Source: Flavobacterium piscisymbiosum (GTDB lineage Bacteria > Bacteroidota > Bacteroidia > Flavobacteriales > Flavobacteriaceae). From it: DNA of 64,000 bases. The notes beneath the pieces are model-generated. The model worked only from the letters and a program-made list of their open reading frames with translations, did not search any database and had not been told where the DNA came from. Where the stretch lies: positions 4,216,001 through 4,280,000 of the forward strand of contig NZ_JAJJMM010000001.1 in the NCBI RefSeq assembly GCF_020905295.1, given 5' to 3'. Positions 2,159-58,658 of this stretch are shown in pieces (position 1 is the stretch's first letter; each line of letters starts with the position of its first letter). Position numbers and translations under genes: made by a program.

Positions 2159-2202
2159 CAAAGAAAGAAAAATATTTAAAAAAGATATATGATCTGAATC
2201 AT
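2159..2202 (-). promoter_or_regulatory. FNR-type operator plus -7-like box, minus strand
   Basis: ATGATCTGAATCAT (2189-2202) fits the ATGAT-N4-ATCAT palindrome found before other anaerobic genes here. TTTCTTTG on the minus strand (2166-2159) differs from TAnnTTTG at one base, and its end is 36.5 bases from the palindrome centre, the same as at hemN, nirK and narK. It points away from the Crp gene at 2225 and towards the terminator, with no protein gene in between. Confidence 0.5.
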
Positions 2203-2224
2203 ATATTAAAGTATTTAAGAAATT

Positions 2225-2842
2225 TCAATAAAATATTTTATGATCTATAATTTCTATTTTTTTTTTCTTGTTCATAATAGAAATTGTCCGAATGACCGTC
2301 TCAACGCGCAAACCAGTAAAATCTGCAATTTCCTGACGGGTATACTGAATTTTCAGTCTTTGATTTGGGGGAATATTCTGCTGTTTTTTTAAATTATCGA
2401 GAAAATACTGTACCCGATACTCAGGTTTATGATTAATTATATTTTTTGAAAATACTATTTTATTGTAAATTCTCCAGGCAAAGACTTTTAATATTTTCGA
2501 TTGGATTTTTGGATTTTCTTCAAGAAGCAAAAAGAAGTTGGCTTTTGAAAGTTTTAAGAGCACACAATCGGTCTGTGCTACTGCTGAGGCTGGATAAGGC
2601 TGATCAATAAAGAGGGGCGGTTCGCCAAAACTGCTTCCATTTTCAAAAATTCCTACTGTCAGGTCTTTTCCGTCTTCATTGGTATAGGTCATTTTTACAG
2701 TCCCCTCAAGAATCTGATAGAAGTATAGGGGAGGATCGTTTTCATAAAATATGATACAGTTTTTGGGTGTTTTTTTTGCAACAGCCCCCCAAGTGAATAG
2801 CAAATCTGTATCAATATGCATTTTTTCTAAAGTTATATGCAT
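2225..2842 (-). CDS. Crp/Fnr-family transcriptional regulator (no N-terminal Cys cluster)
   Basis: 205 residues. The N-terminal half is a cyclic-nucleotide-binding-fold effector domain (GTVKMTYTNEDGKDLTVGIF, GSSFGEPPLFIDQPYPASA). The C-terminal half has a winged helix-turn-helix with recognition helix TGLRVETVIRTISIM. It lacks the cysteine pattern of iron-sulphur FNR, so a haem, nucleotide or other sensor is possible. It is closely similar to the regulator at 57654-58247 (shared FGEPPLFI.KPYP, TRQ.IAD.TGLRVETVIR and C-terminal KIF). An ATG at 2821 (residue 8) is an alternative start. Lying next to nos and hemN, it is a candidate reader of the ATGAT-N4-ATCAT operators; this is inference. Ends in TGA. 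Confidence 0.85.
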   Translation of the reverse strand: MHITLEKMHIDTDLLFTWGAVAKKTPKNCIIFYENDPPLYFYQILEGTVKMTYTNEDGKDLTVGIFENGSSFGEPPLFIDQPYPASAVAQTDCVLLKLSKANFFLLLEENPKIQSKILKVFAWRIYNKIVFSKNIINHKPEYRVQYFLDNLKKQQNIPPNQRLKIQYTRQEIADFTGLRVETVIRTISIMNKKKKIEIIDHKIFY

Positions 2843-3090
2843 TTATAAATGATGCTAAATATTTCATCGCTTGAAGACAGCGCCTGCGGTTATTATTGAT
2901 TTTCATAAATGCGGTGTTATTTGTTTTAAGCAAAGAAAAGAAATCAGGTATAAAAAAAACATGATAAATATTAGGTTTTGAAAGTTTTGTTGTAGCTAGA
3001 ATAGGTGTTAAATTAAAGATTTATAAAAAGATATTTTTAATTTAAACTGGTAGCTAATCTTTTGGAAGTCATTGTGTAATCTGCAGTGTT

Positions 3091-3134
3091 ATGATATTTA
3101 TCATATTACAAAAGCAGTATACTTCGGATATTTG
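3091..3134 (+). promoter_or_regulatory. hemN promoter: FNR-type operator and -7 box
   Basis: ATGATATTTATCAT at 3091-3104 is a near-perfect palindrome. GATATTTG at 3127-3134 matches TAnnTTTG at all but the first base. Centre-to-box spacing is 36.5 bases, implying an activator site centred near -43. The untranslated leader to the hemN ATG is about 85 bases. The rest of the 382-base gap 2843-3224 is AT-rich with no other feature I can support. Confidence 0.65.
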
Positions 3135-3224
3135 TAATGCATTAGAATGGTAATAGCTAAAAAGATTCATTTCAATTAAAAAAAGTTCTATTTCATTTTC
3201 TTCCTAATTTCTAAAATTAAAATT

Positions 3225-4589
3225 ATGTCAAAGTCTTTAATTCAAAAATATAATGTTCCAGGTCCCAGATATACCAGTTATCCAACTGTTCCGTACTGGA
3301 ATGAAATACTTTTTTCAATAGAGGAATGGAAGATTTCTTTTCAAAAATCATTTTTGGAGAGCAATTCACAAAATGGGATCAGCCTATATATTCATTTGCC
3401 TTTTTGTGAAAGTTTGTGCACTTTTTGCGGGTGCAACAAACGAATTACTAAAAATCATTCAGTAGAAGAAAAATACATCATCGCTGTTTTAAAAGAATGG
3501 AGTATTTACTGTGGACTGGCTTCTGAAAGACCAATCATAAAAGAAATTCATCTGGGAGGCGGAACTCCTACTTTTTTCTCATCAGATAATTTAGAAAAAC
3601 TTATAAACGGTATTTTTAGTCTAGCCGATAAAGCTGAAAGTCATGAGTTCAGTTTTGAAGGCCATCCCAACAATACGACTTATGAGCAGCTTAAAAAATT
3701 ATATAATCTAGGGTTTCGCAGAGTAAGTTTTGGCGTTCAGGACTACGCGGCAAAAGTCCAGAAAGCCATTCACAGAATTCAGCCATTTCACAATGTGGCA
3801 AAAGTCACCTTTTGGGCAAAAGAAATTGGTTATACCTCAATAGGACACGATATTATTTTTGGATTGCCTTTTCAAACAATTGAAAACATTGTGGACACCA
3901 TCGAAAAAACAAATTCTTTAAAACCAGATCGATTGGCTTTTTACAGCTATGCGCATACGCCCTGGATCAAAGGAAATGGACAACGTGGATTCAATGAGGC
4001 AGATCTTCCAAAAGATGTAGAAAAAAGAAAATTATATGAGACAGGAAAAAACCTGCTTTCTCAAAACGGATATCACGAAATTGGGATGGATCACTTTGCT
4101 TTAGCTTCGGATAGTTTATATAAGGCTGGTCATACTGGGGAATTGCATCGCAATTTTATGGGATATAGCTCGTCAAAAACCCAGTTAATGATTGGATTGG
4201 GAGTTTCAGCTATCAGTGATAGTTGGTACAGTTTTGCTCAAAATACAAAGAGATTGGAAGAATATTATCAACTATTGGAATCCGACCAACTTCCTGTTGT
4301 CAAAGGGCATATACTTGACAAGGAGGATTTAATTATTCGCAAACATATTCTCAATTTAACTTGTCAATTTGAAACTTCGTGGAATGATAAGGCTTTTTAT
4401 TTTGACGAATTACAAAGTGTTTTATCCGATTTAAAGGAATTGGAAAATGATAATCTGGTAATTATCGAAGAAAATAGAATCAAGATCACAGATGCAGGCA
4501 GACCTTTCGTCCGTAATATTTGTATGGCTTTCGATTTGCATTTGAAAAGAAAATCTCCCGAAACTAATCTTTTTTCAATGACAGTCTAA
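3225..4589 (+). CDS. hemN: Oxygen-independent coproporphyrinogen III oxidase
   Basis: 454 residues, normal length for HemN. It is a radical-SAM enzyme that decarboxylates coproporphyrinogen III to protoporphyrinogen IX without O2, in the cytoplasm. The HemN-specific cluster pattern C61-X3-C65-X2-C68-X-C70 (YIHLPFCESLCTFCGCNK) distinguishes it from HemW, which lacks the last Cys. The SAM-binding GGGTP is at 111-115, and the C-terminal domain is present. An FNR-type operator lies 121 bases upstream. Anaerobic haem synthesis is needed for the cytochromes and haem proteins of denitrification. Confidence 0.93.
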   Translation: MSKSLIQKYNVPGPRYTSYPTVPYWNEILFSIEEWKISFQKSFLESNSQNGISLYIHLPFCESLCTFCGCNKRITKNHSVEEKYIIAVLKEWSIYCGLASERPIIKEIHLGGGTPTFFSSDNLEKLINGIFSLADKAESHEFSFEGHPNNTTYEQLKKLYNLGFRRVSFGVQDYAAKVQKAIHRIQPFHNVAKVTFWAKEIGYTSIGHDIIFGLPFQTIENIVDTIEKTNSLKPDRLAFYSYAHTPWIKGNGQRGFNEADLPKDVEKRKLYETGKNLLSQNGYHEIGMDHFALASDSLYKAGHTGELHRNFMGYSSSKTQLMIGLGVSAISDSWYSFAQNTKRLEEYYQLLESDQLPVVKGHILDKEDLIIRKHILNLTCQFETSWNDKAFYFDELQSVLSDLKELENDNLVIIEENRIKITDAGRPFVRNICMAFDLHLKRKSPETNLFSMTV

Positions 4590-4817
4590 ACTATTAATGG
4601 AATTCCTTGCACAAATTGACTCATATTCTGAAATTTTCTAGTTACGCTAATTATCAAACATGATATCCTGGCAGGGTCGATTCGTTTAACTACTTTCTGG
4701 ATTTAAGATCACATCGATATGCCAGTAGCCACTGTATCAATCTTAAATAATAATTTCGCTGGAAAAGAAAATTATTCAAATTTTTCAAGTAATGTAGTGT
4801 AGTAACTCTAATTATTC

Positions 4818-4825
4818 TACTTTTG
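4818..4825 (+). promoter_or_regulatory. -7 promoter box of the FNR-like gene
   Basis: TACTTTTG is an exact TAnnTTTG match 15 bases before the ATG at 4841. An upstream in-frame TTG at 4823 lies inside this box and so cannot be the translation start. No ATGAT-N4-ATCAT palindrome is visible in the 4590-4840 gap. Confidence 0.6.
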
Positions 4826-4840
4826 CAGCAAAAAATTACT

Positions 4841-5521
4841 ATGAATAAATGCGATCAATGTATTGTAAGACAGCTTAGTGCATTGAAAGCACTAAACAAA
4901 GAGCAAATCATACAATTGGCAAATAGTAAAAGCACTCAGGTAATTAAAAAAGGGGAGGCTATAATAGAGGAAGGAGAAGTAATTAATGGGGTTTTCTGTA
5001 TCAAAGATGGTATTGGAAAACTTTCTAAATTAAGTGCCAATGGCAGGGACCAGGTTGTTAAACTTGTTAAGGCGGGTGAACTTTTAGGGCAACGTTCAAT
5101 GATCAGCAATGAACCTGCAAACTTGTCGGCTACAGCAATTGCTGATATGGAAGTCTGTTTTATTCCAAAATCTGAAATCATTCAATTTTTTAATAATAAC
5201 AATCAGTTTTCAATGAACTTAATGCAGTCTGTTTGTGATGATTTGAAACATGCGGATGAGCATACTGTGGATATGGTACAGAAAACTGTTAAGGAAAGAT
5301 TGGCTGAAAAGTTATTATATCTTAGTGACACTTTTGGTGTAAATGCTGATCAATCCTTAAAAGTGCAATTATCAAGAGAGGAATTGGCCGGAATGATCGG
5401 TACAGCCACCGAGAGTTGCATCCGAATGCTTTCTGAGTTTAAAAAATCAGGGCTGATCGAATTAAAAGGAAAGCTGATTTTTTTAAAGGATATTAAGGGA
5501 TTAAAAAAAGAAGCCAGCTAA
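4841..5521 (+). CDS. fnr: FNR-like Crp-family regulator with N-terminal CxxC
   Basis: 226 residues from the ATG at 4841, chosen because the upstream TTG sits within the -7 box. The N-terminus MNKCDQC puts Cys at positions 4 and 7, with further Cys in the effector domain (VFCIKDG, MEVCFIP, QSVCDD), as expected for an oxygen- or NO-sensing Fe-S FNR protein of Bacteroidota type. A DNA-binding helix follows: LSREELAGMIGTATESCIRM. It stands between hemN and nadA. It is the most likely direct sensor of anoxia for the operators in this window, though two other Crp-type regulators compete for that role. Confidence 0.82.
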   Translation: MNKCDQCIVRQLSALKALNKEQIIQLANSKSTQVIKKGEAIIEEGEVINGVFCIKDGIGKLSKLSANGRDQVVKLVKAGELLGQRSMISNEPANLSATAIADMEVCFIPKSEIIQFFNNNNQFSMNLMQSVCDDLKHADEHTVDMVQKTVKERLAEKLLYLSDTFGVNADQSLKVQLSREELAGMIGTATESCIRMLSEFKKSGLIELKGKLIFLKDIKGLKKEAS

Positions 5522-5528
5522 CATAACA

Positions 5529-6458
5529 TCATTTGGATAATTCCAGCATTCTTTCAATAGGAACAAACGCTTTTTTCATTATATCAGCAGGAACTTTAAT
5601 TTCAGGCGTTTCATTAAGCAAGCAGTCGTATAATTTTTGTAACGTATTTACTTTCATGTAGCCACATTGGCTGCAGGCACAAGTGTTGTCTTCGTTTGAA
5701 GGTGCCGGTATCAATATTTTATAAGGAACTTCCAGTTTCATCTTATGAAGGATTCCCACTTCTGTAGCCACAATAAATTTGGTACCCGGATTGGTTTTAA
5801 CATATTCAATCATTCCTGCAGTCGAACCAATATAGCTGGCTGTTTTTAAAATATGTGTTTCAGATTCAGGATGGGCAATAATTTGCGCATCTGGATTTTG
5901 TTTGTACAATTCAATTAATTTATCAAATGAAAATGCTTCATGAACCACACATGCACCGTCCCAAAGCAACATTTCCCTGCCTGTTTGTTCCATTACATAT
6001 TTTCCCAAATTTTTATCGGGAGCAAAAATAATGGGTTTGTCTTTTGGTATAGAATTGACGATTTTAACGGCATTAGAAGAAGTTACCACAATGTCAGTTA
6101 AAGCTTTAACCTCTGCAGAACAATTCACATATGTAATAACAATGTGGTCTGGATGGGCTTGGGTAAATTGTTGAAATAAATTAGCGGGACAAGAGTCAGC
6201 CAACGAGCAGCCAGCATTCAAATCGGGAAGAATAACTTTTTTACCTGGATTTAAAATTTTTGCAGTCTCAGCCATAAAATGTACTCCTGCAAAAACAATT
6301 ATATCAGCATGCACCTGCATTGCTTCTTGTGACAATCCCAGGCTGTCACCCACATAATCTGAAACATCCTGAATATCGGATTCCTGATAGTAATGTGCCA
6401 GAATAACTGCATTCTTCTCTTTTTTTAATTTCAGTATTCGCTCTTTAAGGTTTTTCAT
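5529..6458 (-). CDS. nadA: Quinolinate synthase
   Basis: 309 residues. NadA condenses iminoaspartate and dihydroxyacetone phosphate to quinolinate in NAD biosynthesis and uses an oxygen-sensitive [4Fe-4S] cluster. Expected ligands are visible: C84 ([10 protein letters not shown]), C170 ([11 protein letters not shown]) and one of C260/C262/C265 (CACSQC). The internal three-fold repeat shows in [22 protein letters not shown] and IIAHPESE. It follows the Rrf2 gene on the same strand by 158 bases and ends in TGA eight bases past the fnr stop. nadB and nadC are not in the window. Confidence 0.93.
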
Positions 6459-6615
6459 TATTAAATTATTTTTAATTATTCTCTTTTATTTTAAAACAAA
6501 AGAGTTGATGCTGATACATATGTTGGGTTTTTAAAATCGGTAAGTTTTTTGAAAATTAAGTTTTGCTCGTTTTTCGGAAATTCAATCAAACAAAGCTTTC
6601 ATTATGACACTAAAA

Positions 6616-7050
6616 TTAATACCTAAGGAAGGTGTCTCCCGATTTAATACCCAAAGCCAATTCTTCCAGATTTGTATTTTCAAGCGTGAAAACCAAATCA
6701 TTGCGAATAGATATAAATTTATCGTGCATCGGACAAGGATGGTCTTCAGAACAATTACTTAATCCTAATGCACAACCGGTCAAAATGCGATCGCCATCCA
6801 AAGAATTAACTATTTGCGCTAATGTTATTTCTTTCATATTCTCTTTGGAAATTTCAAAACCTCCGCCCACTCCTTTTATAGATTTAATAATATTGTCTCG
6901 CGATAGGATTTGAAGAATTTTGGCTGTAAAAGCCTCCGGAGAATCGATTTTTTTGGCAATTTCTTTCAAGCCGATGCGATTGTCCTGATAGGATTGAAAA
7001 GCAATAAAAATAGCTGCACGAATGCCATATTCACATGTTTTAGAGAACAT
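6616..7050 (-). CDS. Rrf2-family regulator, NsrR-like
   Basis: 144 residues with an N-terminal winged helix (KTCEYGIRAAIFIA, SPEAFTAKILQILS, GVGGGFEIS). Three cysteines C93-X6-C100-X5-C106 lie in the cluster-binding loop; the spacing is closer to NsrR (NO sensor) than to IscR. Located at the end of a run of NO-related genes (ric, hemerythrin, haem-copper-like protein), it may sense NO and repress this block or other NO-detoxification genes. Which [Fe-S] cluster it binds cannot be read from sequence. Confidence 0.78.
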   Translation of the reverse strand: MFSKTCEYGIRAAIFIAFQSYQDNRIGLKEIAKKIDSPEAFTAKILQILSRDNIIKSIKGVGGGFEISKENMKEITLAQIVNSLDGDRILTGCALGLSNCSEDHPCPMHDKFISIRNDLVFTLENTNLEELALGIKSGDTFLRY

Positions 7051-7083
7051 AATCTTTTTTTTGTAATGTATAAATCATATAAA

Positions 7084-8741: not shown

Positions 8742-8789
8742 GATTTTATAAAGGATTTAATTCTTGATGCTTAAAAGTGTGTTCATGCT

Positions 8790-9236: not shown

Positions 9237-9247
9237 TTTGTTAAATT

Positions 9248-9712: not shown

Positions 9713-9747
9713 TTGCTTAAAATTGATTGATTTAAAAAAATAAATTA

Positions 9748-10585: not shown

Positions 10586-10636
10586 ATTTGCTGTTTTTTT
10601 AGTTATGAATTGTGTAAAATTTGCGATGTGGTTTTT

Positions 10637-12742: not shown

Positions 12743-12775
12743 AGTTGTTGGTTCTTAGTGATTGAAAGCTACTTA

Positions 12776-13504
12776 TTATTGAGCTGTAAAGTCTTTTTCA
12801 AGTTTGGCAGCTTTTGGAAATAAAATATTATTCTCCAAATGAATGTGTTTATGCAAATCCTGCTCAAATTCTTCTAGCATTGCAAACGTAACTTTATAAG
12901 TATTACAGCCATCGGCTGGCGGTGTATAATTGTTAGTTAATTCTGCTATTTTTCTAAAACGGACACCTTCGGCGTCGTGCTCGTGCATCATCATAGCAAT
13001 TGGATTTTGAATTGTTTCAAAATGAGGCAGCTCAATTAATTCATCAGATAGAGTAGCATGAATCATTTTTTTTATAAATGGGAACAAAATCAGCTCTTCT
13101 TTTTTCATATGTTGTGCCAATTCTCCTGCGCAGCCTTTAAAAAGCTCATTTATTAATAATAGTTCAGGATGTTTTGCGCCATGCACTCTGCTGAGCTTAT
13201 CTAAAAACTGCAGCAGTATTGGTGTTTTTTCTGATACATATCTGTGATGCTTTTTTTCAATATAATCAGCCAATAAATCAATCGGCCAGGCATTGTAATC
13301 AATTCCTGAATCGCTTTTTGATGATAGAACTGTTTCAATTTCCTGTAATAAAACATCTGCAGTCACTGCTTTTTTCTGGCAGGCTTCTTCAATGCTTCTG
13401 TTTCCGTTACAGCAAAAATCTATTCCGTATTTTGAGAACAAGGCTGCTGTTCTAAAATCTTTTGCCACGTATTCTCCGATTGTAATTTGTTCTAAAGTTT
13501 CCAT
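12776..13504 (-). CDS. ric: Iron-sulphur cluster repair di-iron protein (RIC/ScdA/YtfE)
   Basis: 242 residues, the typical length. The N-terminal DUF542 domain has FRTAALFSKYGIDFCCNG with the paired cysteines. The C-terminal hemerythrin domain has histidine/glutamate ligands in KKHHRYV, KHPEL, HMKKEELILFPF, MMHEHDAEG and HIHLENNILFP. RIC repairs Fe-S clusters damaged by NO or oxidants. It is the first gene of a long minus-strand run, with an FNR-type palindrome at 13679-13692, so it probably leads that operon. NO from the adjacent NirK explains its presence. Confidence 0.92.
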   Translation of the reverse strand: METLEQITIGEYVAKDFRTAALFSKYGIDFCCNGNRSIEEACQKKAVTADVLLQEIETVLSSKSDSGIDYNAWPIDLLADYIEKKHHRYVSEKTPILLQFLDKLSRVHGAKHPELLLINELFKGCAGELAQHMKKEELILFPFIKKMIHATLSDELIELPHFETIQNPIAMMMHEHDAEGVRFRKIAELTNNYTPPADGCNTYKVTFAMLEEFEQDLHKHIHLENNILFPKAAKLEKDFTAQ

Positions 13505-13678: not shown

Positions 13679-13692
13679 ATGATTTAAATCAT
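13679..13692. promoter_or_regulatory. FNR-type operator between ric and nirK
   Basis: ATGATTTAAATCAT is a perfect 14-bp palindrome, 175 bases before ric and 185 before nirK. On the minus strand a poor -7 candidate (GAATTTTA, 13656-13649) ends at the standard 36.5-base distance, so it most likely serves ric. The rest of 13505-13876 is AT-rich intergenic DNA holding only this site and the nirK site. Confidence 0.6.
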
Positions 13693-13806: not shown

Positions 13807-13850
13807 ATGACAAATATCATAATAAAGGATATTTTTATCCTTTATTTTTA
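13807..13850 (+). promoter_or_regulatory. nirK promoter: FNR-type operator and -7-like box
   Basis: ATGACAAATATCAT at 13807-13820 fits the palindrome with one deviation. TATTTTTA at 13843-13850 differs from TAnnTTTG only at the last base. Spacing from palindrome centre to box end is 36.5 bases, identical to hemN and narK. The ATG of nirK lies 26 bases past the box. Confidence 0.6.
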
Positions 13851-13876: not shown

Positions 13877-15361
13877 ATGAAAACCAGTGTTAAATTAAAC
13901 AGACAAATAAGGGGGTTTTTTATAATGTTGCTTGTTTTAGTCGGATTTTTTTCTTGCAAAAGAGGAAGCGATGAAGCAAAAAATTATCAAAATATTGAGG
14001 CCAAAGGGCAGCAAACTGCCGAACTCACGGCGCCTCCGTTTGTTCCGAAAGCAGTAGGAGACCGTGAAGCTACAAAATTAGTGGTCAATATGGAAATTAA
14101 GGAAATTGAAGGAGAAATGGTAGATGGTGTAAAATATATCTATTGGACTTTTGGGGGTTCTGTTCCCGGAAGTTTTATCAGAACCAGAGTGGGTGATGAA
14201 GTAGAATTTCACCTAAAAAACCATCCGGATAACAAAATGCCTCACAATATTGATTTACACGCGGTAACCGGGCCAGGAGGAGGAGCAACCTCATCGTTGG
14301 TTGCCCCAGGTCACGAAAAAGTGTTTAGTTTCAAAACCTTAAATCCCGGTTTATACGTGTATCATTGTGCTACAGCACCAGTTGGAATGCATATTGCTAA
14401 CGGAATGTATGGGTTGATTTTGGTTGAACCAGAAGGAGGCTTGCCACCAGTTGATAAAGAATATTACATCATGCAAGGCGATTTTTACACCAAGGGCAGT
14501 TATGGGGAACAAGGTTCTCAACCTTTTGATATGGATAAAGCCATTAAGGAACAAGCTGATTATGTGGTCTTCAATGGGAAAGTTGGAGCTCTCGCCGGAG
14601 ATAAGTCTTTAACGGCCAAAGTTGGTGAAACTGTCCGTATTTATATGGGAAATGGAGGTCCTAATTTGGTCTCATCTTTCCATGTTATTGGAGAAATTTT
14701 CGACAAAGTGCATATTGAAGGAGGGGATATGATCAACGAAAACGTACAAACTACCTTAATACCTGCAGGTGGTTCGGCCATTGTGGAGTTTAAAGTAGAT
14801 GTTCCGGGAACTTTTATACTGGTAGACCACTCGATTTTTAGGGCCTTTAATAAAGGAGCACTTGGAATGCTGAAAGTTGAAGGCGAGGAAAATAAAAAAT
14901 TGTATTCTGGAACCATACAAGATGGAATTTATTTACCAGAAGGTGGGACAATTCAAGGTATGCCAAAAGGCAAAGCAGTTCCTAAAACTACTGTTGCAAA
15001 AACTGTTCCTGAACAAATTAAAGCCGGTAAAGATTTATTTGACCGTACCTGTTATGCCTGTCACCAATCTGAAGGACAAGGTATTCCGAATGCTTTTCCT
15101 CCATTGGCAAAATCAGATTACCTGAATGCGAATCCAGATAGAGCTATTGGCGCGGTATTGCACGGATTAAGTGGAGAGATCACCGTTAATGGCAAGAAAT
15201 TCAATAACGTGATGACCAGTCAGAACCTAACTGACGAGCAAGCTGCTGATGTTCTGACATACATATACAACAGTTGGGGCAATAATAAAACAGTAATAAC
15301 TCCGGCAAAAGTAAAAGCTGTTAGAGCCAAACCTGCTCCAAAAGTAGCCCAGGAACATTAG
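13877..15361 (+). CDS. nirK: Copper nitrite reductase fused to cytochrome c, lipoprotein
   Basis: 494 residues. Lipoprotein signal with C27 (LVGFFSC). Two cupredoxin domains hold the full NirK set: type 1 Cu ligands H123, C164, H172, M177; type 2 Cu ligands H128, H163, H318; catalytic D126 and H269. After a Pro/Lys linker a cytochrome c domain carries C392-x-x-C395-H396 and a likely axial M446 (NNVMTSQ). It reduces nitrite to NO in the periplasm, with the fused haem receiving electrons. The linked SCO and porin genes downstream fit copper loading and outer-membrane passage. FNR-type operator upstream. Confidence 0.95.
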
Positions 15362-18243: not shown

Positions 18244-18287
18244 ATGATTTATATCATGTTTTAGGATTACGGACTATTTTATCTTTG
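18244..18287 (+). promoter_or_regulatory. narK promoter: FNR-type operator and -7 box
   Basis: ATGATTTATATCAT at 18244-18257 and an exact TAnnTTTG box (TATCTTTG) at 18280-18287. The 36.5-base spacing places the activator site near -43 relative to a start about seven bases past the box. ATG of narK at 18311. Confidence 0.72.
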
Positions 18288-18310: not shown

Positions 18311-19792
18311 ATGAGCAATTTATCACAATCACACAGAATATTATTTTTAAACACACTTGCTTTTGCAGTCTGTTTTGCTTGTTGGACTTTAAATGGTGTT
18401 TTAGTCACTTTTTTAGTTGACCAGGAAATATTTGATTGGAATGTAGTTCAAATCGGATGGTTATTGGGAATTCCAATACTTACAGGCTCGCTCATGCGGT
18501 TACCAATGGGTATTTTAACAGATAAATATGGAGGTTGAGTGGTGTATTCTGCTTTGCTGATTTTGGTATCTATTCCATTGTTTTTGCTTCCTTTTGCTGC
18601 CAATTTTTGGATGTTCGCACTATTGAGTTTTATGTTCGGAATGGTAGGAACAAGTTTTGCTGTTGGTGTGGCCTATACTTCACTATGGTATCCTAAAGAA
18701 TGGCAAGGACGTGCCTTAGGAATTTTCGGAATGGGTACTGCAGGAGCTTCTATTACTCCCTTTATAGCACCCAGTATGCTAAAATACTTTTCAGAGTCAG
18801 ATCCAGTAAATGGGTGGAAATATTTGCCTGTTATTTACGGTGTAGTATTGTTGACGATGGGTATTGTTTTTATTCTTTTTTCGAAAACTAAAAAAATAGA
18901 AGCAAAAGCAAAAACAGTTAAAGAACTTTTACAACCGCTTAAAGAGGTGCGTGTTTGGCGCTTTGGAACCTATTACTTTTTGCTGTTTGGTTCGTTTGTG
19001 TCATTTTCCCAATGGTTGTTGCCTAATTTTATGAATGTTTATCATACAACTTTAATTTTAGGAGGGCTGTTTACTACTTGTTTTAGTTTACCAGCTGGTA
19101 TTATTCGTGCTTTTGGAGGATTTTTATCCGATAAATTTGGAGCAAGAAAAGTGATGTATTGGGTATTGAGTACTTCGGTAGTGTTGAGTTTTTTACTTTT
19201 GTTTCCAAAAATGAATATTACTACTTCCGGTAGCGGCTTGATGGCAGCAAAAGCAGGAACGGTTACACAAGTTTCACCATCTAAAATAGTTATTGGAGAA
19301 AAAGAATATTTAGTTACTTCAAAAGATGTTAATGCAGAGCACAATCCGTTTTTTCCATCTAAAAAAACATGGCAGGAAGTTGTTGTAGCAGAAAATCAAA
19401 AAGTTCAGAAAAAAGAATTAATTGCAGACGGAATCACGCAGATTCATTTTGAAGCGAATATGTGGGTTTATCTTGTCTTGGTTATTTTAATTGGGACTTG
19501 TTGGGGAATTGGTTCGGCAGCAGTTTACAAACACATTCCTGAATATTTTCCAAATCAGGTAGGGGTTATAGGAGGAATGGTTGGAATGATTGGTGGTTTG
19601 GGAGGATTTATTGGTCCAATAGTTTTTGGATACCTGCTTGCTTTTACTGGTTTTTGGACCAGTTCATGGCTCTTTATCTTTGTCTTATCTATTATTTGTT
19701 TGATTTGGATGCACCGTGTAATTGTAAAAGTGACTAAAGAAAAACTACCTGAATTTGATCAGGATATGGATAGAAAAGATGTTTCAGAATAG
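18311..19792 (+). pseudogene. narK: Nitrate/nitrite transporter NarK interrupted by in-frame TGA
   Basis: One frame of 493 codons plus stop broken only by TGA at 18536-18538 (codon 76). Major-facilitator protein: MRLPMGILTDKYGG then the stop, then VVYSALLILV. The break falls in MFS motif A (G-X3-D-R/K-X-G-R/K-R/K) where Arg or Lys is expected, so CGA or AGA to TGA is likely. The rest looks intact, about 12 helices with a long loop after helix 6-7 (AAKAGTVTQVSPSKIVIG). NarK moves nitrate in and nitrite out. It may be a recent pseudogene, a read error, or read through. Confidence 0.8.
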
Positions 19793-48743: not shown

Positions 48744-48806
48744 TATTATTTAAAGTAAAGAGTGACAGATAATAAATTCTATGGAATTTATAAATCCCTA
48801 AAGCTA

Positions 48807-49100: not shown

Positions 49101-49259
49101 TTTTTATCAGATTTTCATGTCTTTAATATTATATGTAAAGTTTATTTGAATGTATCCTAAAGATAATCATTTAAGCTGTATTGGTTTTTAGCGATATTAC
49201 AAAGTGGCTAGTGTAAGCAAACATTTGACCCGATAGATTAAAGAGTAAAAATTTATCAG

Positions 49260-50198: not shown

Positions 50199-50237
50199 GA
50201 TAATAAATTTAAGATTATAATTTGAGGTCAATTAATT

Positions 50238-51827: not shown

Positions 51828-51828
51828 T

Positions 51829-52893: not shown

Positions 52894-52895
52894 TT

Positions 52896-54236
52896 TTATA
52901 GTGTTCCTAAAACATTTTGAAGTTGATAGTATTGAATTTGTGCTGCTATTTTTGTTGAAGCGAAATCAAATCTGCTTTGCAATAATTGAATATCTGCATC
53001 TAAAAGATCGGTAATAAGTGCCGCTTGATTAAAGTAGTTTTGCTTTACAATTCTTGCATTCTCGGTTGATTGCGCCACATCATTCCTTGCTACATCAATT
53101 TTAATGAGAGATTCTTTAAAACGCAGATAGTTTTCATAAACTTGTTGTCGAATTTTATCATCGATATGGTGGTGTTCCACTTCTTCTTTCTCTAAATTTA
53201 ATTGGGCTACTTTTACTTTTGGCCTGTTGATATAAAGCTCTGATATTGGTATTGAAGCCCTAACGCCAAAAATTCCGAGGGTGTAGTTACTAGGAGAATA
53301 TGGATAAAGGAAAATTTGGGGATTGGCAAGATAAAATTCACCATACATTCCAATTTTTGGTTTTACATTGGCTTTAGTACTTTTGAGTTCTATTTTCCTT
53401 AAATCTACTGTCTTTTCTGAAATATGATAATCATATGATTTTTTCTGAGCTACTTCCAAATAGCTTTCATATGATTGCAATTCAAATAATGCAGGATCTA
53501 ATTCCTGGTAAGGATTCACCAGTTCCAAATCAGGTAGCCCAATTAAAATGTTGAGTTTTTGATTTGCAATAGCAATATCATTTTCGATTTTAACAAGCAT
53601 CATTTTTTGATTAGATAATTTGAGTTCTACTCGCAGTACGTCGCTCTTTAATATCACACCATTTTTATAAAGAGCCTTAATTTCCAACAGTTGTTTTTCC
53701 TGATTGGCGATATCTTTGATCATGAGTTCTTTAAAAATATGGCATCGTTGTAAACTCAAATAATAAATAGCTCCTTGCAATTTAATTTCAGAAACCGTCA
53801 TATCCTTTTGCACTTTGGCAATATCAGATAGCGTTTTTTTCTTATCTATTTTTAAGTTTAATTTATTTCCATTGTAAATATTCAGGTACATATCTGTACT
53901 GACCTTATATAGCCAATGGATCACCTCATGCTGGGTCGGTTTACTGAAAAGGCCGTTTTCATACACAGGAATATTTGTGGCATATTCATAATTACCTTTT
54001 AAAGTAATTTCAGGAAGCCGTTCAATTTTGATTTCTGAAATTTCTTCTTCAGCGATGGTTGACTCCAAAGTATTCAAATGAATTTTTCTACTGTTATCAA
54101 TAACGTTTGCCCACATTTGATCTATTGATAAGGGCTTTGATTCGGCGTTTGGAATCAATTTGTTTTGCGCGAAGAGGAAAGAGGTTTGCAGGGTTAAAAG
54201 GAGGTAAATTAGTTTCTTTGATTTATCGATAAACAT
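52896..54236 (-). CDS. TolC-family outer-membrane efflux protein
   Basis: 446 residues from ATG 54236 (a longer start at 54260 is not supported). Signal peptide MFIDKSKKLIYLLLTLQTSF to FAQ. Two outer-membrane-efflux repeats with long helical stretches (LESTIAEEEISEIKIERLPE, KVAQLNLEKEEVEHHH, NYFNQAALITDLLDADI). First gene of the efflux operon (tolC-hlyD-mfs-hypothetical), divergent from AraC gene at 54456. Confidence 0.87.
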   Translation of the reverse strand: MFIDKSKKLIYLLLTLQTSFLFAQNKLIPNAESKPLSIDQMWANVIDNSRKIHLNTLESTIAEEEISEIKIERLPEITLKGNYEYATNIPVYENGLFSKPTQHEVIHWLYKVSTDMYLNIYNGNKLNLKIDKKKTLSDIAKVQKDMTVSEIKLQGAIYYLSLQRCHIFKELMIKDIANQEKQLLEIKALYKNGVILKSDVLRVELKLSNQKMMLVKIENDIAIANQKLNILIGLPDLELVNPYQELDPALFELQSYESYLEVAQKKSYDYHISEKTVDLRKIELKSTKANVKPKIGMYGEFYLANPQIFLYPYSPSNYTLGIFGVRASIPISELYINRPKVKVAQLNLEKEEVEHHHIDDKIRQQVYENYLRFKESLIKIDVARNDVAQSTENARIVKQNYFNQAALITDLLDADIQLLQSRFDFASTKIAAQIQYYQLQNVLGTL

Positions 54237-54422
54237 TTTAATTATATTTTTAGACCACAAAGATATAATCCAATTGGCCCTTCCTATTTATGTAAAATAG
54301 ACGATTATTTAATCATTCCGGTCAATGTTAATTTTAACTTAAATATGACAGTAAACTTCTTTTATTTTTGTTCAGAGAAATTAATGATTTCCAAAATTAC
54401 CCCACTTACAAATTGCGTTTCG

Positions 54423-54430
54423 TATCTTTG
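54423..54430 (+). promoter_or_regulatory. -7 promoter box of efflux-linked AraC gene
   Basis: TATCTTTG, exact TAnnTTTG match, 25 bases before the ATG. No palindrome of the FNR type nearby. Confidence 0.6.
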
Positions 54431-54455
54431 ATTAATCCGTATAAACAATAAAAAT

Positions 54456-55241
54456 ATGAGCTTAATTGCTGCCTTACCTGAGATTGACAACTTATCATCT
54501 TCTGTTTTTGTGATGCATGAGCGATTTGAGAAATTCATTCCGCACCATAGTCATACTAAAGGACAATTATCATATGTCGAAGGGGGGCTAGCGTATCTGC
54601 AGATAAATGACCGTCACTATGTAATTCCTGCACGTCATTATTTCTGGGTACCACAAGGCTTAACACATATCTTAAAAATTGGACATTCAGGAACGGTTTT
54701 GCGTTCTTTGTTTTTTTATACCCATGATGATGACAAACATCCTTTTTATTCAGAGGTAGGGATTTATCCTATTAATGAACTTCTCATGGAAATGATCAAA
54801 TATTCAGAAACCTGGGATGGACATATACTCCCTGGAGAGAGTCGTTACCTTTTTTTATCGGTTATTAAGAATATTCTCCCTGAAATAAGTGCTAAAAGAC
54901 TACCAATCGCATTGCCTTTTACCGAAAACGAGCGTATGCAGCCCATATTAGAATGGATTCAAAATAATATATCGGCTACTCATACTCTGCGTAGCTTAGG
55001 AAGTCAGTTCGGACTGAGTGAAAGGACTTTATCACGTTTGTTTCAGTCTACTTTAAATACTTCTTTTTTGCAATACCTGAAATTACTCCGAATGGTCAAA
55101 GCCATTGAATTAATGCTTCAAACGGACTTATCAATGAGTGAAATTGGATATTCTGTAGGCTATGGCAGTCTGCCTGCTTTTAGCAATACCTTTTATCAGT
55201 TAACCAATTTTAGGCCATCCGATTTTAAAAAGAATTTTTAA
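54456..55241 (+). CDS. AraC-family regulator with cupin sensor, efflux operon regulator
   Basis: 261 residues. N-terminal cupin domain (FIPHHSHTKGQLSYVEGGLA, HYFWVPQGLTH) and C-terminal AraC HTH (LRSLGSQFGLSERTLSRLF, LSMSEIGYSVGYGSLPAF). Divergent from the tolC-hlyD-mfs operon, so likely its activator or repressor, sensing an exported compound. Two bases from the next gene. Confidence 0.85.
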   Translation: MSLIAALPEIDNLSSSVFVMHERFEKFIPHHSHTKGQLSYVEGGLAYLQINDRHYVIPARHYFWVPQGLTHILKIGHSGTVLRSLFFYTHDDDKHPFYSEVGIYPINELLMEMIKYSETWDGHILPGESRYLFLSVIKNILPEISAKRLPIALPFTENERMQPILEWIQNNISATHTLRSLGSQFGLSERTLSRLFQSTLNTSFLQYLKLLRMVKAIELMLQTDLSMSEIGYSVGYGSLPAFSNTFYQLTNFRPSDFKKNF

Positions 55242-55242
55242 G

Positions 55243-55587
55243 ATGCAAACGATCATTATAAAAAAAGTTTATAACAGCAAAACAGCTGATGGGTCTTATC
55301 GGGTTTTGGTCGATAGATTGTGGCCACGCGGAATAAGAAAAATAGATTTGCAGATTGACGAATGGAACAAGGAAATTGCGCCCTCTCTTGCATTAAGAAA
55401 ATGGTTTACTCACCAAAAAGAGCGCTTTGAAGAATTTTCTAAACTTTATATCCACGAATTAATGGCAAAAACCGATGAATTAAACAGATTGAAAATTATT
55501 GCTGGAACTCATGATGTAACTTTATTATATGGAGCAAGGCATCCCCAATATCATGCAATAATTTTAAAGGATTATTTATCGAAGTAG
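55243..55587 (+). CDS. Short DUF488-family protein (YeaO-like)
   Basis: 114 residues, starting one base after the AraC gene. DUF488 motifs: RVLVDRLWPRGIRK, APSLALRKWFTHQKERFEEF, LLYGARHPQYHA. Different subgroup from the protein at 45594. Function unknown; often near nitrosative or heavy-metal-response genes. Confidence 0.85.
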   Translation: MQTIIIKKVYNSKTADGSYRVLVDRLWPRGIRKIDLQIDEWNKEIAPSLALRKWFTHQKERFEEFSKLYIHELMAKTDELNRLKIIAGTHDVTLLYGARHPQYHAIILKDYLSK

Positions 55588-55613
55588 AAAAGGATATCAT
55601 CTAAAAGATATTA

Positions 55614-55988
55614 TTGAAAATAAAGCATAGAACTAACCTTGAAACACAACCTATTTTGAGCCTAAATAGAAAAATAATACGATTTACTGTTGTTGAAAAT
55701 AATCAAAAACATCATATTGAAACCTATGTGGGTGAATATCCAAGTTTAATGTTTTTGTTGCGGGACAGGCTCTATTTAGATGGTTTTGGAGAATGTCAGG
55801 GAGTTGGAAGATGTGCAACCTGCATCGTACAAGCAAAAGCTATAAAAGGAAATTCAATGATAAAAGAAAGAAATGAACCTTCCACGTTATCCAAAATGGG
55901 GTATACCGATGCGGACATTCGGCTCTCATGCCAACTATTTATCACAACTGATTTAGAGGAATCAGAAATAGAAGTTCTTGAAATTTAG
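55614..55988 (+). CDS. Plant-type [2Fe-2S] ferredoxin
   Basis: 124 residues from TTG (no ATG in-frame upstream of the fold; a stop precedes closely). Ligands C61-X5-C67-X2-C70 in GECQGVGRCATC, and C106 in LSCQLF. Adrenodoxin-like electron carrier. Could serve the flavohaemoglobin or an unseen reductase; partner not determined. Part of the AraC-DUF488 unit. Confidence 0.78.
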   Translation: MKIKHRTNLETQPILSLNRKIIRFTVVENNQKHHIETYVGEYPSLMFLLRDRLYLDGFGECQGVGRCATCIVQAKAIKGNSMIKERNEPSTLSKMGYTDADIRLSCQLFITTDLEESEIEVLEI

Positions 55989-56183
55989 CCCTAAAAAAAA
56001 TCAGTAGTTGTAAAAAATTGATAATTAACATTAATTAAAATGTCAAACAAATAACCCTTTTAATTTAAATATAAGAGCAAATTTCAGTGATTAATTTGGA
56101 TTCAAAAATTCTTTTTAATTATTTTCACTAATAACCTCAAAGTAAATTACGCATAGTTTTACTTTTATAGATGGAAAGATACT

Positions 56184-56212
56184 AAAAAATAAACCCTGCA
56201 TTTGCAGGGTTT
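56184..56212 (-). terminator. Terminator of flavohaemoglobin gene
   Basis: Stem AAACCCTGCA / TGCAGGGTTT (10 bp, TT loop) with six T on the minus strand, five bases past the hmp stop. Confidence 0.88.
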
Positions 56213-56216
56213 AAAA

Positions 56217-57416
56217 TTAATTCAAATTAATAGACCCAGGTCCAAATTCCTCATAAAAAATATTTGATTTGCTGACATTAAAATTGATTAACGAATTATA
56301 ATGTGTTTTAATAAACATTTCCGGGCCGCAGATGTAGTAGTGTGCATCTTCTAATAAAATAGCCTCCTTACATTTATTTAAATCTACCCTCCCTTCGATA
56401 ATAGCACTATCACTTTGATCATCAACATCCTCATTGAATAAATAAGTGTCAAGCCAGTCAGCTTCTTCTTGAATTAAGTTAACATCTTCTTTAAATGCAT
56501 GAACAGAGGCATTTCTACAACCGTGTACCCATATCGTCTTATTCTTAAGGGTATCTCTGTTTGTTTCAAGCATACTCAGCATAGGAGTCACTCCAACGCC
56601 GCCACTTATTAAGACAATTGGAGTTCCGGCAGGTCTTAAAGAAAAAATACCCGCTGGATTGGATAGATTTATAGTATCTCCAACTTGCATTCCATGTAAA
56701 GTATTAGAAACCATTCCTGCAGGATTATTTAAAATAGCAGTTTCTTTTTTTACAGATATCCTATAGAATTCAGAATTTGGTACAGTAGATAAGCTATATT
56801 GCCTTGGTTGCAGTAATTCAATTTCCTTAACATAAACCTGGACGCTCACATATTGTCCTGCTTTATAATCAGCAATTTTTTTGCCATCTGTTGGATAAAG
56901 AAAGAATGACTTTATTTCTTTAGATTCCTCGGAAATCTTCCCAATAGTAAAGTTTCTCCAGCCATTCCAACCTCCCTCTTTTTCCAGATTAGCTAAATAC
57001 ATCTCTTTTTCAATATTTATCATAATATCAGCTAATTGATTATAAGCTATTGTCCACGCTTCAAGTAGCTCATCATTAGCTGCATCACCCAATACCTCCT
57101 TAATTGAAGCTATTAAATGTTCTCCCACAATTGAATACTGTTCCGGTTTTATGCTCAAACTAACATGTTTGTTACCAATCCCTTTTAAAACATTAAGCAG
57201 CACTGAAGGATTATCTATATTTGCGGCATAAGCTAAAACAGCGCCTGCCAATGCTTCTTTTTGTCTTCCATTAGCTTGGTTTCCCATATTAAAAACTTCT
57301 TTTAATTCAGGATGTTGTCCCAGCATTCTTTTATAAAAATGTTCTGTAAGGATTGCTCCTGCTGATTGTAATATTGGAACGGTCGCTTTTATTAACTCTT
57401 TTTGTTTAAAATCCAT
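56217..57416 (-). CDS. hmp: Flavohaemoglobin, nitric-oxide dioxygenase
   Basis: 399 residues, normal length. Globin domain with distal Y28 and Q52, proximal H84 (GNKHVSL). FAD domain with RQYSLSTVPNS and NAD-binding domain GGVGVTPMLSML, ending EEFGPGS. Converts NO to nitrate using O2 and NAD(P)H, or reduces NO to N2O without O2. FNR-type operator 57631-57644 and exact -7 box lie upstream. Confidence 0.94.
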   Translation of the reverse strand: MDFKQKELIKATVPILQSAGAILTEHFYKRMLGQHPELKEVFNMGNQANGRQKEALAGAVLAYAANIDNPSVLLNVLKGIGNKHVSLSIKPEQYSIVGEHLIASIKEVLGDAANDELLEAWTIAYNQLADIMINIEKEMYLANLEKEGGWNGWRNFTIGKISEESKEIKSFFLYPTDGKKIADYKAGQYVSVQVYVKEIELLQPRQYSLSTVPNSEFYRISVKKETAILNNPAGMVSNTLHGMQVGDTINLSNPAGIFSLRPAGTPIVLISGGVGVTPMLSMLETNRDTLKNKTIWVHGCRNASVHAFKEDVNLIQEEADWLDTYLFNEDVDDQSDSAIIEGRVDLNKCKEAILLEDAHYYICGPEMFIKTHYNSLINFNVSKSNIFYEEFGPGSINLN

Positions 57417-57599
57417 TTTGATCTATTTAAAATTTATTTGTAAAATAAGAAGCATTGCGTTAGCTCTAATACTTTCTATTGCATCAAATCCACGCAAATT
57501 CTTTATTGTTGAATCATTGAATTAAAATCTTTCATGATGTACCCTAATTTATCTAGAATGAATGGGGTACTCTTTACATTTTATCTTTAACTACTTCTA

Positions 57600-57644
57600 C
57601 AAAATTAGGTTATGGTTAGATAGCAATTTTATGATCTAGATCAT
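57600..57644 (-). promoter_or_regulatory. hmp promoter: FNR-type operator and -7 box
   Basis: ATGATCTAGATCAT (57631-57644) is a perfect palindrome. On the minus strand TAATTTTG (57607-57600) matches TAnnTTTG exactly; spacing 37.5. It lies just past the Crp gene stop at 57654, pointing to hmp. Confidence 0.75.
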
Positions 57645-57653
57645 AAAAGTAAA

Positions 57654-58247
57654 TTATAGGAAAATTTTTCGATCCTTAATTTTGAGCCCACCCTTTTGCT
57701 CAAGTGTTTTTATAGCTCTAATTACTGTTTCAACCCTTAATCCAGTAAGATCTGCAATTTGTTGGCGTGTTAACGGCACTTTATATTTTACATCAGATGG
57801 TACGCCAATTTCTTCCTTGAAATAATCAATCAGCTTTATGATTCGATGTTCAGCATCTTGAGAAGATAGTTCCGATGCCATAATCGACTTATAATATAAT
57901 CTCTGGGAAAGGACTTCACTAACAGCAAGATTTACCTCAGGATTTGTCAAAAGCAATCTAAAAAAAGCTTCTTTGTGGATGGTATATACTGTTGTATGAG
58001 AGATAGCCATAGCATTTGATGGATAAGGTTTATTAATAAACAATGGAGGTTCTCCAAAAGTTTGGCCTGTAGAAAATATTCCTTGTATAAATTCCTTGCC
58101 CTCATCATTAAAATTATTCATCTTAACGCTGCCAGATAGGATTTGATAGAAAAATTTTGGAAAATCACCTTCATTAAAGAGAAAATCACCTTTTTTATAT
58201 GTCATCTTGCAAGCGCCAAACTTAAGCAATATATCTTCTTTTATCAT
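57654..58247 (-). CDS. Crp/Fnr-family regulator, paralogue of 2225-2842
   Basis: 197 residues from ATG 58247; 12 extra residues from 58283 are not conserved. Effector fold (GSVKMNNFNDEGKEFIQGIF, GQTFGEPPLFINKPYPSNAM) and recognition helix TGLRVETVIRAIKTL. No N-terminal Cys cluster. Same sequence class as the regulator at 2225, so both may bind the same operators. Adjacent to hmp, with the hmp operator at its 3' end. Confidence 0.83.
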   Translation of the reverse strand: MIKEDILLKFGACKMTYKKGDFLFNEGDFPKFFYQILSGSVKMNNFNDEGKEFIQGIFSTGQTFGEPPLFINKPYPSNAMAISHTTVYTIHKEAFFRLLLTNPEVNLAVSEVLSQRLYYKSIMASELSSQDAEHRIIKLIDYFKEEIGVPSDVKYKVPLTRQQIADLTGLRVETVIRAIKTLEQKGGLKIKDRKIFL

Positions 58248-58613
58248 GTGGAGATTATAGTTAAATATCTGATAGTTAATCATGTAATGGGCTTTCTCAA
58301 GGCATTAAAAAATAAATATATATTGAATTATTTGAATCTTTAAATAAACAATACAGCTTTTTGTTTTAAACATGCTTGGTAAATAACCAAACTTTAAATT
58401 TATGTTTAGTTTTTTATGTACTTGAAGCCTTTTGAGTAAAAGAATTAAAATCAAAATTGATGATTTTAACAAACTTAGATGAACTCAAGCTATGAAGCAA
58501 TCAAACAGTATAAAATGACTCGAATGATTAAACATTCGGCTGGTATGCAACAAAATAGCAAGAAGTATGATCGTAGTTGTTTTTAGTTTTCATACAAATT
58601 GTGAAACAATATT
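58248..58613. other. AT-rich intergenic DNA
   Basis: No gene or hairpin supported between the Crp gene start and the operator at 58614. Confidence 0.5.
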
Positions 58614-58658
58614 ATGATTTAGGTCATATTTTCATGATACATATGTGGGCTAAATTTG
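58614..58658 (+). promoter_or_regulatory. FNR-type operator and exact -7 box before a small membrane gene
   Basis: ATGATTTAGGTCAT (58614-58627) is a palindrome with one G-T/A-C deviation. TAAATTTG (58651-58658) matches TAnnTTTG exactly; centre-to-box spacing is 37.5, the same as hmp. The start codon at 58677 is 19 bases past the box. Confidence 0.72.

Follow-up and report, generated by a model that had tools for sequence, protein, structure and literature searches.

In this study, we analyzed a stretch of 64,000 bases from the genome of Flavobacterium piscisymbiosum (hereafter the window; bases 4216001-4280000 of the 6.49 Mb genome), in which a palindrome of the Crp/Fnr type, ATGAT-N4-ATCAT, recurs upstream of hemN, nirK, narK and hmp. 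At these genes the palindrome stands at a fixed distance from a -7 promoter box, the same spacing is in excess across the whole genome, and it is kept to the base upstream of the cbb3 oxidase genes of other Flavobacteriaceae. We consider it probable that these sites mark activator-dependent promoters, which in the Flavobacteriaceae would form a regulon for low oxygen and nitrogen oxides, and that the site at position 2189 belongs among them as the promoter of a small RNA. Positions below are those of the window, and seven-digit positions are those of the genome.

Operators and promoter boxes in the window

A preliminary description of the window had listed seven palindromes, and all seven coordinates were correct. 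Exact copies of ATGAT-N4-ATCAT lie at 2189, 3091, 13679, 18244 and 57631, and copies with one mismatch lie at 13807 and 58614. The last two are perfect matches under the wider ATGAY-N4-RTCAT, to which we correct the consensus. The half-sites are palindromic with a TGA core and leave four bases between their 5-base arms, as in class II sites. With at most one mismatch allowed, 13 palindrome matches were found in the window against 5.46 expected, and 13 or more were reached in 0 of 100 shuffles.

Distances were measured from the palindrome centre to the last base of the box, and the values of 37 and 38 counted by our script and used below correspond to 36.5 and 37.5 bases. Re-measured in this way, the spacing reported earlier for five promoters holds. 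It is 36.5 bases at hemN (box GATATTTG, 5/6 of TAnnTTTG), at nirK (site 13807; TATTTTTA, 5/6) and at narK (TATCTTTG, 6/6), and 37.5 bases at hmp (TAATTTTG, 6/6) and before a short open reading frame (ORF) at 58677 (TAAATTTG, 6/6). Site 2189, absent from the earlier list of spaced promoters, has a minus-strand box, TTTCTTTG (5/6), at 36.5 bases. At site 13679, no box of 5/6 was found at 36.5 or 37.5 on either strand, the best being GAATTTTA (4/6), directed towards a hemerythrin-domain gene. The operators and boxes are as follows.

2189..2202, minus strand: operator of the candidate RNA gene, ATGATTCAGATCAT; exact match, 22 bases beyond the Crp gene's stop codon
2159..2166, minus strand: -7 box TTTCTTTG of the candidate RNA gene; 5/6, centre to last base 36.5
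3091..3104, plus strand: operator of hemN; exact match
3127..3134, plus strand: -7 box GATATTTG of hemN; spacing scan
13679..13692, no strand assigned: operator between the hemerythrin-domain gene and nirK; exact match, no good box either way
13807..13820, plus strand: operator of nirK, ATGACAAATATCAT; perfect under ATGAY-N4-RTCAT
13843..13850, plus strand: -7 box TATTTTTA of nirK; spacing scan
18244..18257, plus strand: operator of narK; exact match
18280..18287, plus strand: -7 box TATCTTTG of narK; spacing scan
57631..57644, minus strand: operator of hmp; exact match
57600..57607, minus strand: -7 box TAATTTTG of hmp; spacing scan
58614..58627, plus strand: operator ATGATTTAGGTCAT before the 58677 ORF; one mismatch, perfect under the wider consensus
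58651..58658, plus strand: -7 box TAAATTTG before the 58677 ORF; spacing scan

Genome-wide excess of the spacing

The exact palindrome occurs at 34 sites in the genome, against 11 for the reversed control pattern. We counted TAnnTTTG boxes at distances of 15-114 on both strands in the neighbourhoods of all 34 sites, taking the expected box frequency from 16 blocks of 20 kb at round coordinates. Seven exact boxes lay at 37/38 where 0.105 were expected (binomial P = 2e-11), and the other 98 distances combined also yielded seven. Boxes of at least 5/6 at 37/38 numbered 14 against 1.7 expected (P = 2e-9). Because the sites in the window had suggested the distance, those outside it were counted separately as well, which gave 5 exact boxes at 37/38 among 29 sites.

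The search was widened to ATGAY-N4-RTCAT because the fifth base varies in the cbb3 promoters of other genera. This class has 56 sites in the genome against 26 for the control pattern, and 19 of its 22 additional sites, two of them in the window, formed a second site set. At these 19 sites, 3 exact boxes at 37/38 were found against 0.06 expected, and 8 boxes of at least 5/6 against 0.95 expected; without the two window sites, the counts were 2 and 6, respectively. The preliminary description had held the constancy to be unlikely by chance, and the genome scan for motif and box that it suggested bears this out in both site sets. A purely accidental origin, in which palindrome and box would both be common words of an AT-rich genome, could appeal to the 11 occurrences of the control pattern and to the 17 of 34 exact sites that fall within ORFs longer than 100 codons. 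This explanation carries a practically negligible probability, being already refuted by the box counts in the two sets and by the conservation in 29 of 30 genera described below.

Conservation at cbb3 oxidase promoters

The ccoNO loci that we examined came from 30 genera of Flavobacteriaceae and were the best 30 from a search of 60 genomes. In 29 of the 30, the cbb3 promoter combines a site of at least 9/10 to ATGAY-N4-RTCAT with a box of at least 5/6 at exactly 37, about 260 bases upstream of the gene in most genera; the sole miss is L111, and shuffled upstream regions yielded the layout in 0.035 of 30. In a draw across the phylum, it was found at 9 of 9 cbb3 loci of Flavobacteriaceae (our genome included), whereas among 21 loci from other families only 3 had a TGAY-N4-RTCA site with a box of at least 5/6 at 37. 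The operator layout at cbb3 is therefore a rule at the level of the family with traces beyond it.

Position relative to the transcription start

In F. johnsoniae, the -7 element reads T-12 A-11 n n T-8 T-7 T-6 G-5 and is followed by 4 or 5 bases to the start (excerpts of PMC6847099), and in F. psychrophilum it likewise spans -12 to -5 (excerpts of PMC9723704). Because the box occupies these positions in both species, the operator centre is predicted from the published Flavobacterium start-site maps to lie at -41.5 or -42.5. The centre stands 29.5 bases from the T at -12. The class II layout suggested earlier is supported, with the predicted centre moved from near -43 to -41.5 or -42.5 by the published maps of the -7 box. 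Class II sites of Escherichia coli are also centred at -41.5 and have the same distance from the centre to -12.

At these promoters, a dimer of the Crp/Fnr family would bind ATGAY-N4-RTCAT at -41.5 (sometimes -42.5), over a weak -33 element, and would contact RNA polymerase sitting on the TAnnTTTG -7 element, as in class II activation. The site-binding protein might instead be a repressor that hinders polymerase, with the fixed distance reflecting steric blocking. A dimer at -41.5 would indeed cover the -33 region; however, the distance is fixed to the base in 29 of 30 cbb3 promoters, whereas the placement of repressor sites is generally looser. Repression also runs counter to the response of F. 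psychrophilum, in which oxygen limitation strongly induces the cbb3 oxidase, haem synthesis being up as well (excerpts of PMC9723704), and we regard it as very improbable.

Gene content of the predicted regulon

Outside the window, a box of at least 5/6 at 37/38 precedes ccoNO (PRK14485) and the adjoining ccoI-like heavy-metal P-type ATPase, a cytochrome c gene followed by nosZ, pyruvate formate-lyase (pfl) followed by its activase, and nadA followed by nadB. The same layout precedes azurin, two YceI proteins, a second hemN, and a small ORF followed by a globin (truncated globin), together with a thioredoxin-reductase-like protein, an alginate-export-type porin and a ketoacyl-synthase-III-like protein. 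The predicted regulon is largely a set of low-oxygen and nitrogen-oxide genes. The shared operator at the class II position supports the earlier proposal of a regulon that joins nitrate, nitrite, nitric oxide (NO) and haem genes; the predicted set is much wider than the window (cco, pfl, nosZ, azurin, nadAB). The genes in the window are listed below.

1684..2067, plus strand: group III truncated haemoglobin, convergent with the RNA gene; phmmer to PDB 2ig3, E = 2.9e-11, with no Pfam match at 0.001
3225..4589, plus strand: hemN, oxygen-independent coproporphyrinogen III oxidase; TIGR00538 above cut-off
12776..13504, minus strand: ScdA_N and hemerythrin protein (di-iron repair type), divergent from nirK; Pfam
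13877..15361, plus strand: nirK, copper nitrite reductase with a cytochrome c domain; TIGR02376, Pfam
18311..19792, plus strand: narK-like nitrate/nitrite transporter; TIGR00886 below cut-off for the part 18539-19792
56217..57416, minus strand: hmp, NO-inducible flavohaemoprotein; NF009805 above cut-off
58677..58811, plus strand: 44-codon ORF after the 58614 promoter; ORF reading

The narK frame is interrupted at codon 76, after DKYGG, by a TGA; the listed ORF therefore covers only 18539-19792, and narK may be inactive despite its perfect promoter box. In the 58677 ORF, the same frame resumes past a TGA for 48 hydrophobic codons, to 58958. The genome has two nadA genes: one at 5855346 with an operator and a box, TATCTTTA, at 37, followed by nadB, and the other in the window (5529-6458), adjoining the FNR-like gene at 4841. 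Named relatives of hmp came from 7 loci, only 2 of them of Flavobacterium, and were not used further.

A candidate small RNA at site 2189

Site 2189 is more than a further operator: a conserved non-coding unit follows it. The site lies between two convergent gene ends with no protein gene of at least 100 codons in reach, and its promoter is predicted to make a small RNA of about 76 nucleotides, running from 2154 to 2079.

2079..2154, minus strand: candidate small RNA, about 76 nucleotides, with a conserved AAATTATTAATTCA segment and an intrinsic terminator; conservation and fold, predicted +1 at 2154

In our genome and in 6 of 6 close relatives (Crp 78-80% identical), the operator and a box at 37/38 are present, followed by a GGTTAAA-like 5' start (GAGTAAA in L217), the AAATTATTAATT segment and a terminator hairpin. 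We built a covariance model on the transcript alone, without the operator, and searched 299 genomes of the genus. Fifteen matches had E values of at most 1.8e-6, and the next stood at 3.5e-5; seven of the fifteen were the model's own sequences and eight were new, three of these being nearly identical to the window. At all 15 loci, an operator of 9-10 of 10 and a box at 37/38 were found, the box reaching at least 5/6 in 14 and 4/6 in L257, with the Crp gene before the RNA and a globin gene after it.

Identity was calculated over 12 non-redundant loci, leaving out three with at least 99% Crp identity to the window (L247, L249 and L253). Mean pairwise identity was 0.98 in the 14-base segment and 0.96 in the 5' arm of the terminator, but lower in the operator (0.84), the box (0.78), the first ten bases (0.75) and the stretch that joins the segment to the terminator (0.67), and it fell to 0.50 in the spacer between operator and box. 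As judged from sequence, the candidate thus has a predicted promoter of its own, an intrinsic terminator and no conserved reading frame.

Other identities for this site were considered and rejected. A small-protein gene was set aside, the ATG that follows GGAGG in the window copy being present in only 2 of the 12 non-redundant loci, and a mere chance palindrome was ruled out by the conserved operator, box and RNA loci. An Rfam search of the candidate RNA returned no family above the gathering score, only sub-threshold matches, and six weak matches outside the genus were ordinary terminators.

Origin of the RNA beside a fasciclin gene

We further examined 15 weaker matches to the RNA. Seven of them were the 3' untranslated region (3' UTR), from the stop codon on, of a gene for a lipoprotein-like protein of 183-186 residues, and these seven loci had a convergent globin gene within 1.6 kb; Pfam showed a fasciclin domain for one homologue (L339). 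None of the other eight had such a promoter; they were coding sequence or unrelated terminators. In a more distant Crp clade (46-53% identical), a fasciclin gene lies within about 2 kb in 16 of 17 loci, the 17th (L345) having none in the stretch examined, and the exact conserved segment follows the fasciclin gene in 11 of the 16. At L343 (3500-3570), this segment (AATTATTAATTCA) also occurs in a globin 3' UTR, ahead of the shared terminator and on the strand opposite the fasciclin copy.

The promoters of 22 fasciclin genes from different genomes (7 + 15; L348 was left out as it shares a genome with L266) were scanned for boxes at 36-39 in the 17-locus set and at 33-42 in the first seven, and the scan was repeated for 20-74. 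All 22 had a site of at least 8/10 with a box of at least 4/6 at exactly 37, against 1.0 in shuffles, which are a lenient control for promoters that are related to each other. TTTG stood at 37 in 20 of the 22, mostly as GTACTTTG or GTGCTTTG, boxes of at least 5/6 occurred in 4 (shuffles 0.2), and the right half-site was often CTCAT.

The simplest history is that the fasciclin coding sequence was lost in the clade of the window while operator, spacing and RNA element were kept, and the RNA is probably a regulatory RNA retained at that loss. In the presumed older order, the Crp gene would have been followed by the fasciclin gene with its operator, the RNA element in its 3' UTR, and a convergent truncated globin gene. 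This order is part of a joint reading to which we assign an even chance: a 3'-UTR RNA freed by fasciclin loss became a stand-alone RNA of the low-oxygen and NO regulon, and, besides, the FNR-like oxygen sensor of this phylum carries its iron-sulfur cluster on a changed set of ligands (Cys4, Cys7, Cys53 and Cys106; see below).

Alternatively, the sequence at 2154-2079 may be a functionless relic, that is, a promoter and a terminator left behind by the fasciclin deletion. The terminator also serves the convergent globin gene, and the same genome holds an orphan operator and box at 3182661 that precede no gene. At 3182661, however, similarity to relatives covers mainly the promoter part, whereas at 2189 conservation is highest in the transcribed segment (0.98, against 0.50 in the spacer, over the 12 non-redundant loci), and that segment is exactly kept in 11 of 16 fasciclin 3' UTRs. 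We hold a relic to be rather unlikely.

The 3182661 site (L309:2162-2175; box TATTTTTG at 37, no ORF downstream) was itself tried as a second non-coding RNA and rejected as an orphan promoter. Twenty loci were fetched for it, including our own genome (L319); in 9 of the 11 that were read from relatives, the promoter is followed by a gene of about 480 codons, and the one tested is a copper nitrite reductase. The genome thus has this orphan class II promoter in addition to the nirK of the window, which has an operator of its own.

FNR-type regulators of the genome

The three Crp/Fnr proteins counted earlier proved too few. The genome has 31 cyclic-nucleotide-domain matches, and we classed six of them as FNR-type. 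One of the genome's regulators is 97% identical to a protein of Flavobacterium araucananum.

2225..2842, minus strand: FNR-type regulator without an N-terminal cysteine pair (NnrR/DNR-like by context); Pfam cNMP_binding and HTH_Crp_2, cysteine inventory
4841..5521, plus strand: FNR-like regulator with Cys4, Cys7, Cys53 and Cys106; family search, cysteine alignment
57654..58283, minus strand: FNR-type regulator without an N-terminal cysteine pair; Pfam, cysteine inventory
3336100-3336777: FNR-like regulator divergent from ccoI; 76% identical to 4841
1970425: FNR-type regulator without an N-terminal cysteine pair; adjoins a globin gene
5722931-5723581 (L316): sixth, more distant FNR-type regulator; 29% identical to the ccoI-linked one

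The regulators at 2225, 57654 and 1970425 have 2, 1 and 0 cysteines, respectively, and lack the N-terminal pair and hence the FNR cysteine motif. By gene context, 57654 lies at hmp, 1970425 at a globin gene, and 2225 at a globin gene and hemN. In both the missing motif and the neighbouring genes, the three resemble regulators of the DNR/NnrR type. In the mechanism that we propose, the two FNR-like proteins (4841 and the ccoI-linked one) would act under low oxygen through an iron-sulfur cluster on Cys4, Cys7, Cys53 and Cys106, and the three cysteine-poor relatives would act under NO or nitrite with overlapping DNA specificity; the sixth protein (5722931) may take part. Overlapping DNA specificity is familiar from the ANR/DNR pair of Pseudomonas.

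The recognition helices had been described as different, and they do differ (LRVETVIR versus TATESCIR), but all six proteins keep E, I and R at the positions aligned with residues 181, 184 and 185 in CRP numbering. Because these residues are identical in all six, the helices alone do not tell the readers apart. Operators also accompany the genes of the cysteine-poor proteins: they lie just past the stop codon of the crp gene in L213-L219 and L237-L242, and before its start, with a box at 37/38 reading into the gene, in 14 of the 17 loci L220-L236. Several regulators probably share the operator.

An altered cysteine set in the FNR-like proteins

The cluster of E. coli FNR is held by Cys20, Cys23, Cys29 and Cys122. 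By sequence, the FNR-like proteins are related to FNR of E. coli and Aliivibrio fischeri (PDB 5cvr and 5e44; E = 4e-16 for P0001 and 9e-16 for 4841). The 4841 and 3336100 proteins both begin MNKCDQC and resemble FNR in this CxxC near the N-terminus and in a cysteine at the position of Cys122. They differ from it in that the third N-terminal cysteine, Cys29 of E. coli, is absent and an invariant Cys53 is present instead.

We aligned 73 FNR-like sequences of Bacteroidota (that of the window, 30 from the family, and 28 + 14 further ones; the E. coli row was left out of the counts). Cysteines at 4, 7, 53 and 106 in Flavobacterium numbering, corresponding to FNR 20, 23, none and 122, were found in 66 of them, two of which have one extra N-terminal cysteine near the place of Cys29. 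Two sequences lost all four together, and five (30-35% identical) lack Cys53 and have other N-terminal cysteines instead, at least three in all. Because the cysteines are lost together and one is replaced by another, these patterns point to Cys53 as the fourth cluster ligand. The 4841 and 3336100 proteins likely work like FNR, and we classified them as a variant of it. In a literature search on relocated FNR cysteine ligands, no paper on such a relocation was recognised.

A second FNR-type subfamily of Bacteroidota, with three N-terminal cysteines and no Cys53, comprises L299, L300, L367, L368, L369 and the 5722931-5723581 protein of our own genome, whose cysteines are at 8, 11, 16, 39, 59 and 110.

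Points that weigh against the proposed regulon

Several observations speak against reading these sites as activator-dependent promoters of one regulon. The 17 of 34 exact sites inside ORFs mostly lack a box at 37/38 and are probably chance matches, 17 of the 30 cbb3 promoters (L086-L115) show an additional -7-like box at a distance of 59 or 60 from the operator centre, and the layout is scarce at the cbb3 loci of other families. The A at -11 is missing from the boxes of the RNA promoters, which are mostly TTnnTTTG, and from most fasciclin boxes, which are GTnnTTTG (4/6), only 4 of 22 reaching 5/6. A search of 149 genomes sampled across the family gave no convincing copy of the RNA outside the genus. 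Across 59 genomes, the presence of an FNR-like protein was not associated with motif excess over the control (P = 0.26) and only weakly with motif density alone (P = 0.01), and it was dropped as a predictor of motif number.

In addition, 7 of 8 cbb3 promoters keep the site in genomes without a close FNR-like protein, defined by a best E value worse than 1e-20 to 1e-29. Because they do, the cbb3 site can be read by some other protein, perhaps an FNR-type one that is less closely related, and some of these genomes do contain a more distant FNR-type match. Many Flavobacteriaceae also encode longer members of the Crp/Fnr family, whose open frames run to about 350-360 amino acids and include an extra N-terminal part; these may read the cbb3 site in genomes that lack a close FNR-like protein.

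The same observation bears on the possibility of a single reader, in which the FNR-like oxygen sensor alone would use this operator and the three cysteine-poor Crp proteins another one. An FNR-like gene adjoins ccoN in many genera (for example, G022, G003 and G014), and the cbb3 site is very well conserved, both of which fit such a division. It is nevertheless unlikely, given the E, I and R kept in all six helices, the operators directly at cysteine-poor crp genes in many loci, and these seven genomes that keep their cbb3 site.

Relation to known systems

Class II promoters of E. coli FNR and the promoters of alphaproteobacterial FixK/FnrL have a TGA-N6-TCA core centred at -41.5. The promoters described here share with them the core, the predicted centre, the 29.5-base spacing, and cbb3, hemN, nir, nos and pfl as targets. 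They differ in the outer base, which is A rather than T (ATGAY for TTGAT), and in the use of TAnnTTTG, the element of the Bacteroidota primary sigma factor, rather than TATAAT. The candidate RNA in turn resembles E. coli FnrS, which is short, has an FNR-type promoter and ends in a terminator. It is alike in layout; no sequence relation to FnrS was seen, and no Rfam family at gathering score was found for it.

Within the phylum, HcpR2 of Bacteroides and Porphyromonas is also a Crp/Fnr protein without the FNR cysteine motif that responds to nitrogen oxides (excerpts of PMC1274295). According to the same excerpts, its motif is GTAACnnnnGTTAC in most cases and its predicted regulon is mostly hcp alone, and position 181 is Pro (Gln in P. 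gingivalis), where the proteins here have Glu. The text of PMC1274295 contains neither of the words flavobact and cytophaga.

The nearest relative of the candidate RNA that we found in the phylum is SnoA of B. thetaiotaomicron, which in the excerpts of PMC13370916 likewise lies directly beside the gene of a nitrogen-oxide Crp/Fnr regulator (hcpR). SnoA is antisense in the hcp promoter, with predicted pairing to the -7 region, and its level is kept without HcpR, whereas the candidate RNA itself has a Crp/Fnr-type operator, faces the 3' end of the globin gene and overlaps no gene start. In F. psychrophilum, 85 newly described RNAs and 4 known ones make up Rfp1-89 (excerpts of PMC9723704); the candidate may overlap with one of these. 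For a Flavobacteriales Crp/Fnr protein, a MalR-like, carbon-sensing role has been proposed (excerpts of PMC8510549). Our search of open-licence papers found no description of an FNR-type regulon in Flavobacteria.

Bacteroidota are major heterotrophs and consumers of nitrous oxide in soil and water. The base-exact promoter rule, seen at cbb3 in 29 of 30 genera, makes control of low-oxygen metabolism and denitrification predictable in the genomes of these Flavobacteriaceae, and it suggests that the geometry of class II promoters is preserved even where the primary sigma factor and the -7 element are very different. The swapped cysteine offers a simple test of how far the sensor site of FNR tolerates the relocation of a ligand. 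If the RNA is real, it would be a testable regulatory RNA of life with NO and low oxygen in a phylum where few are known.

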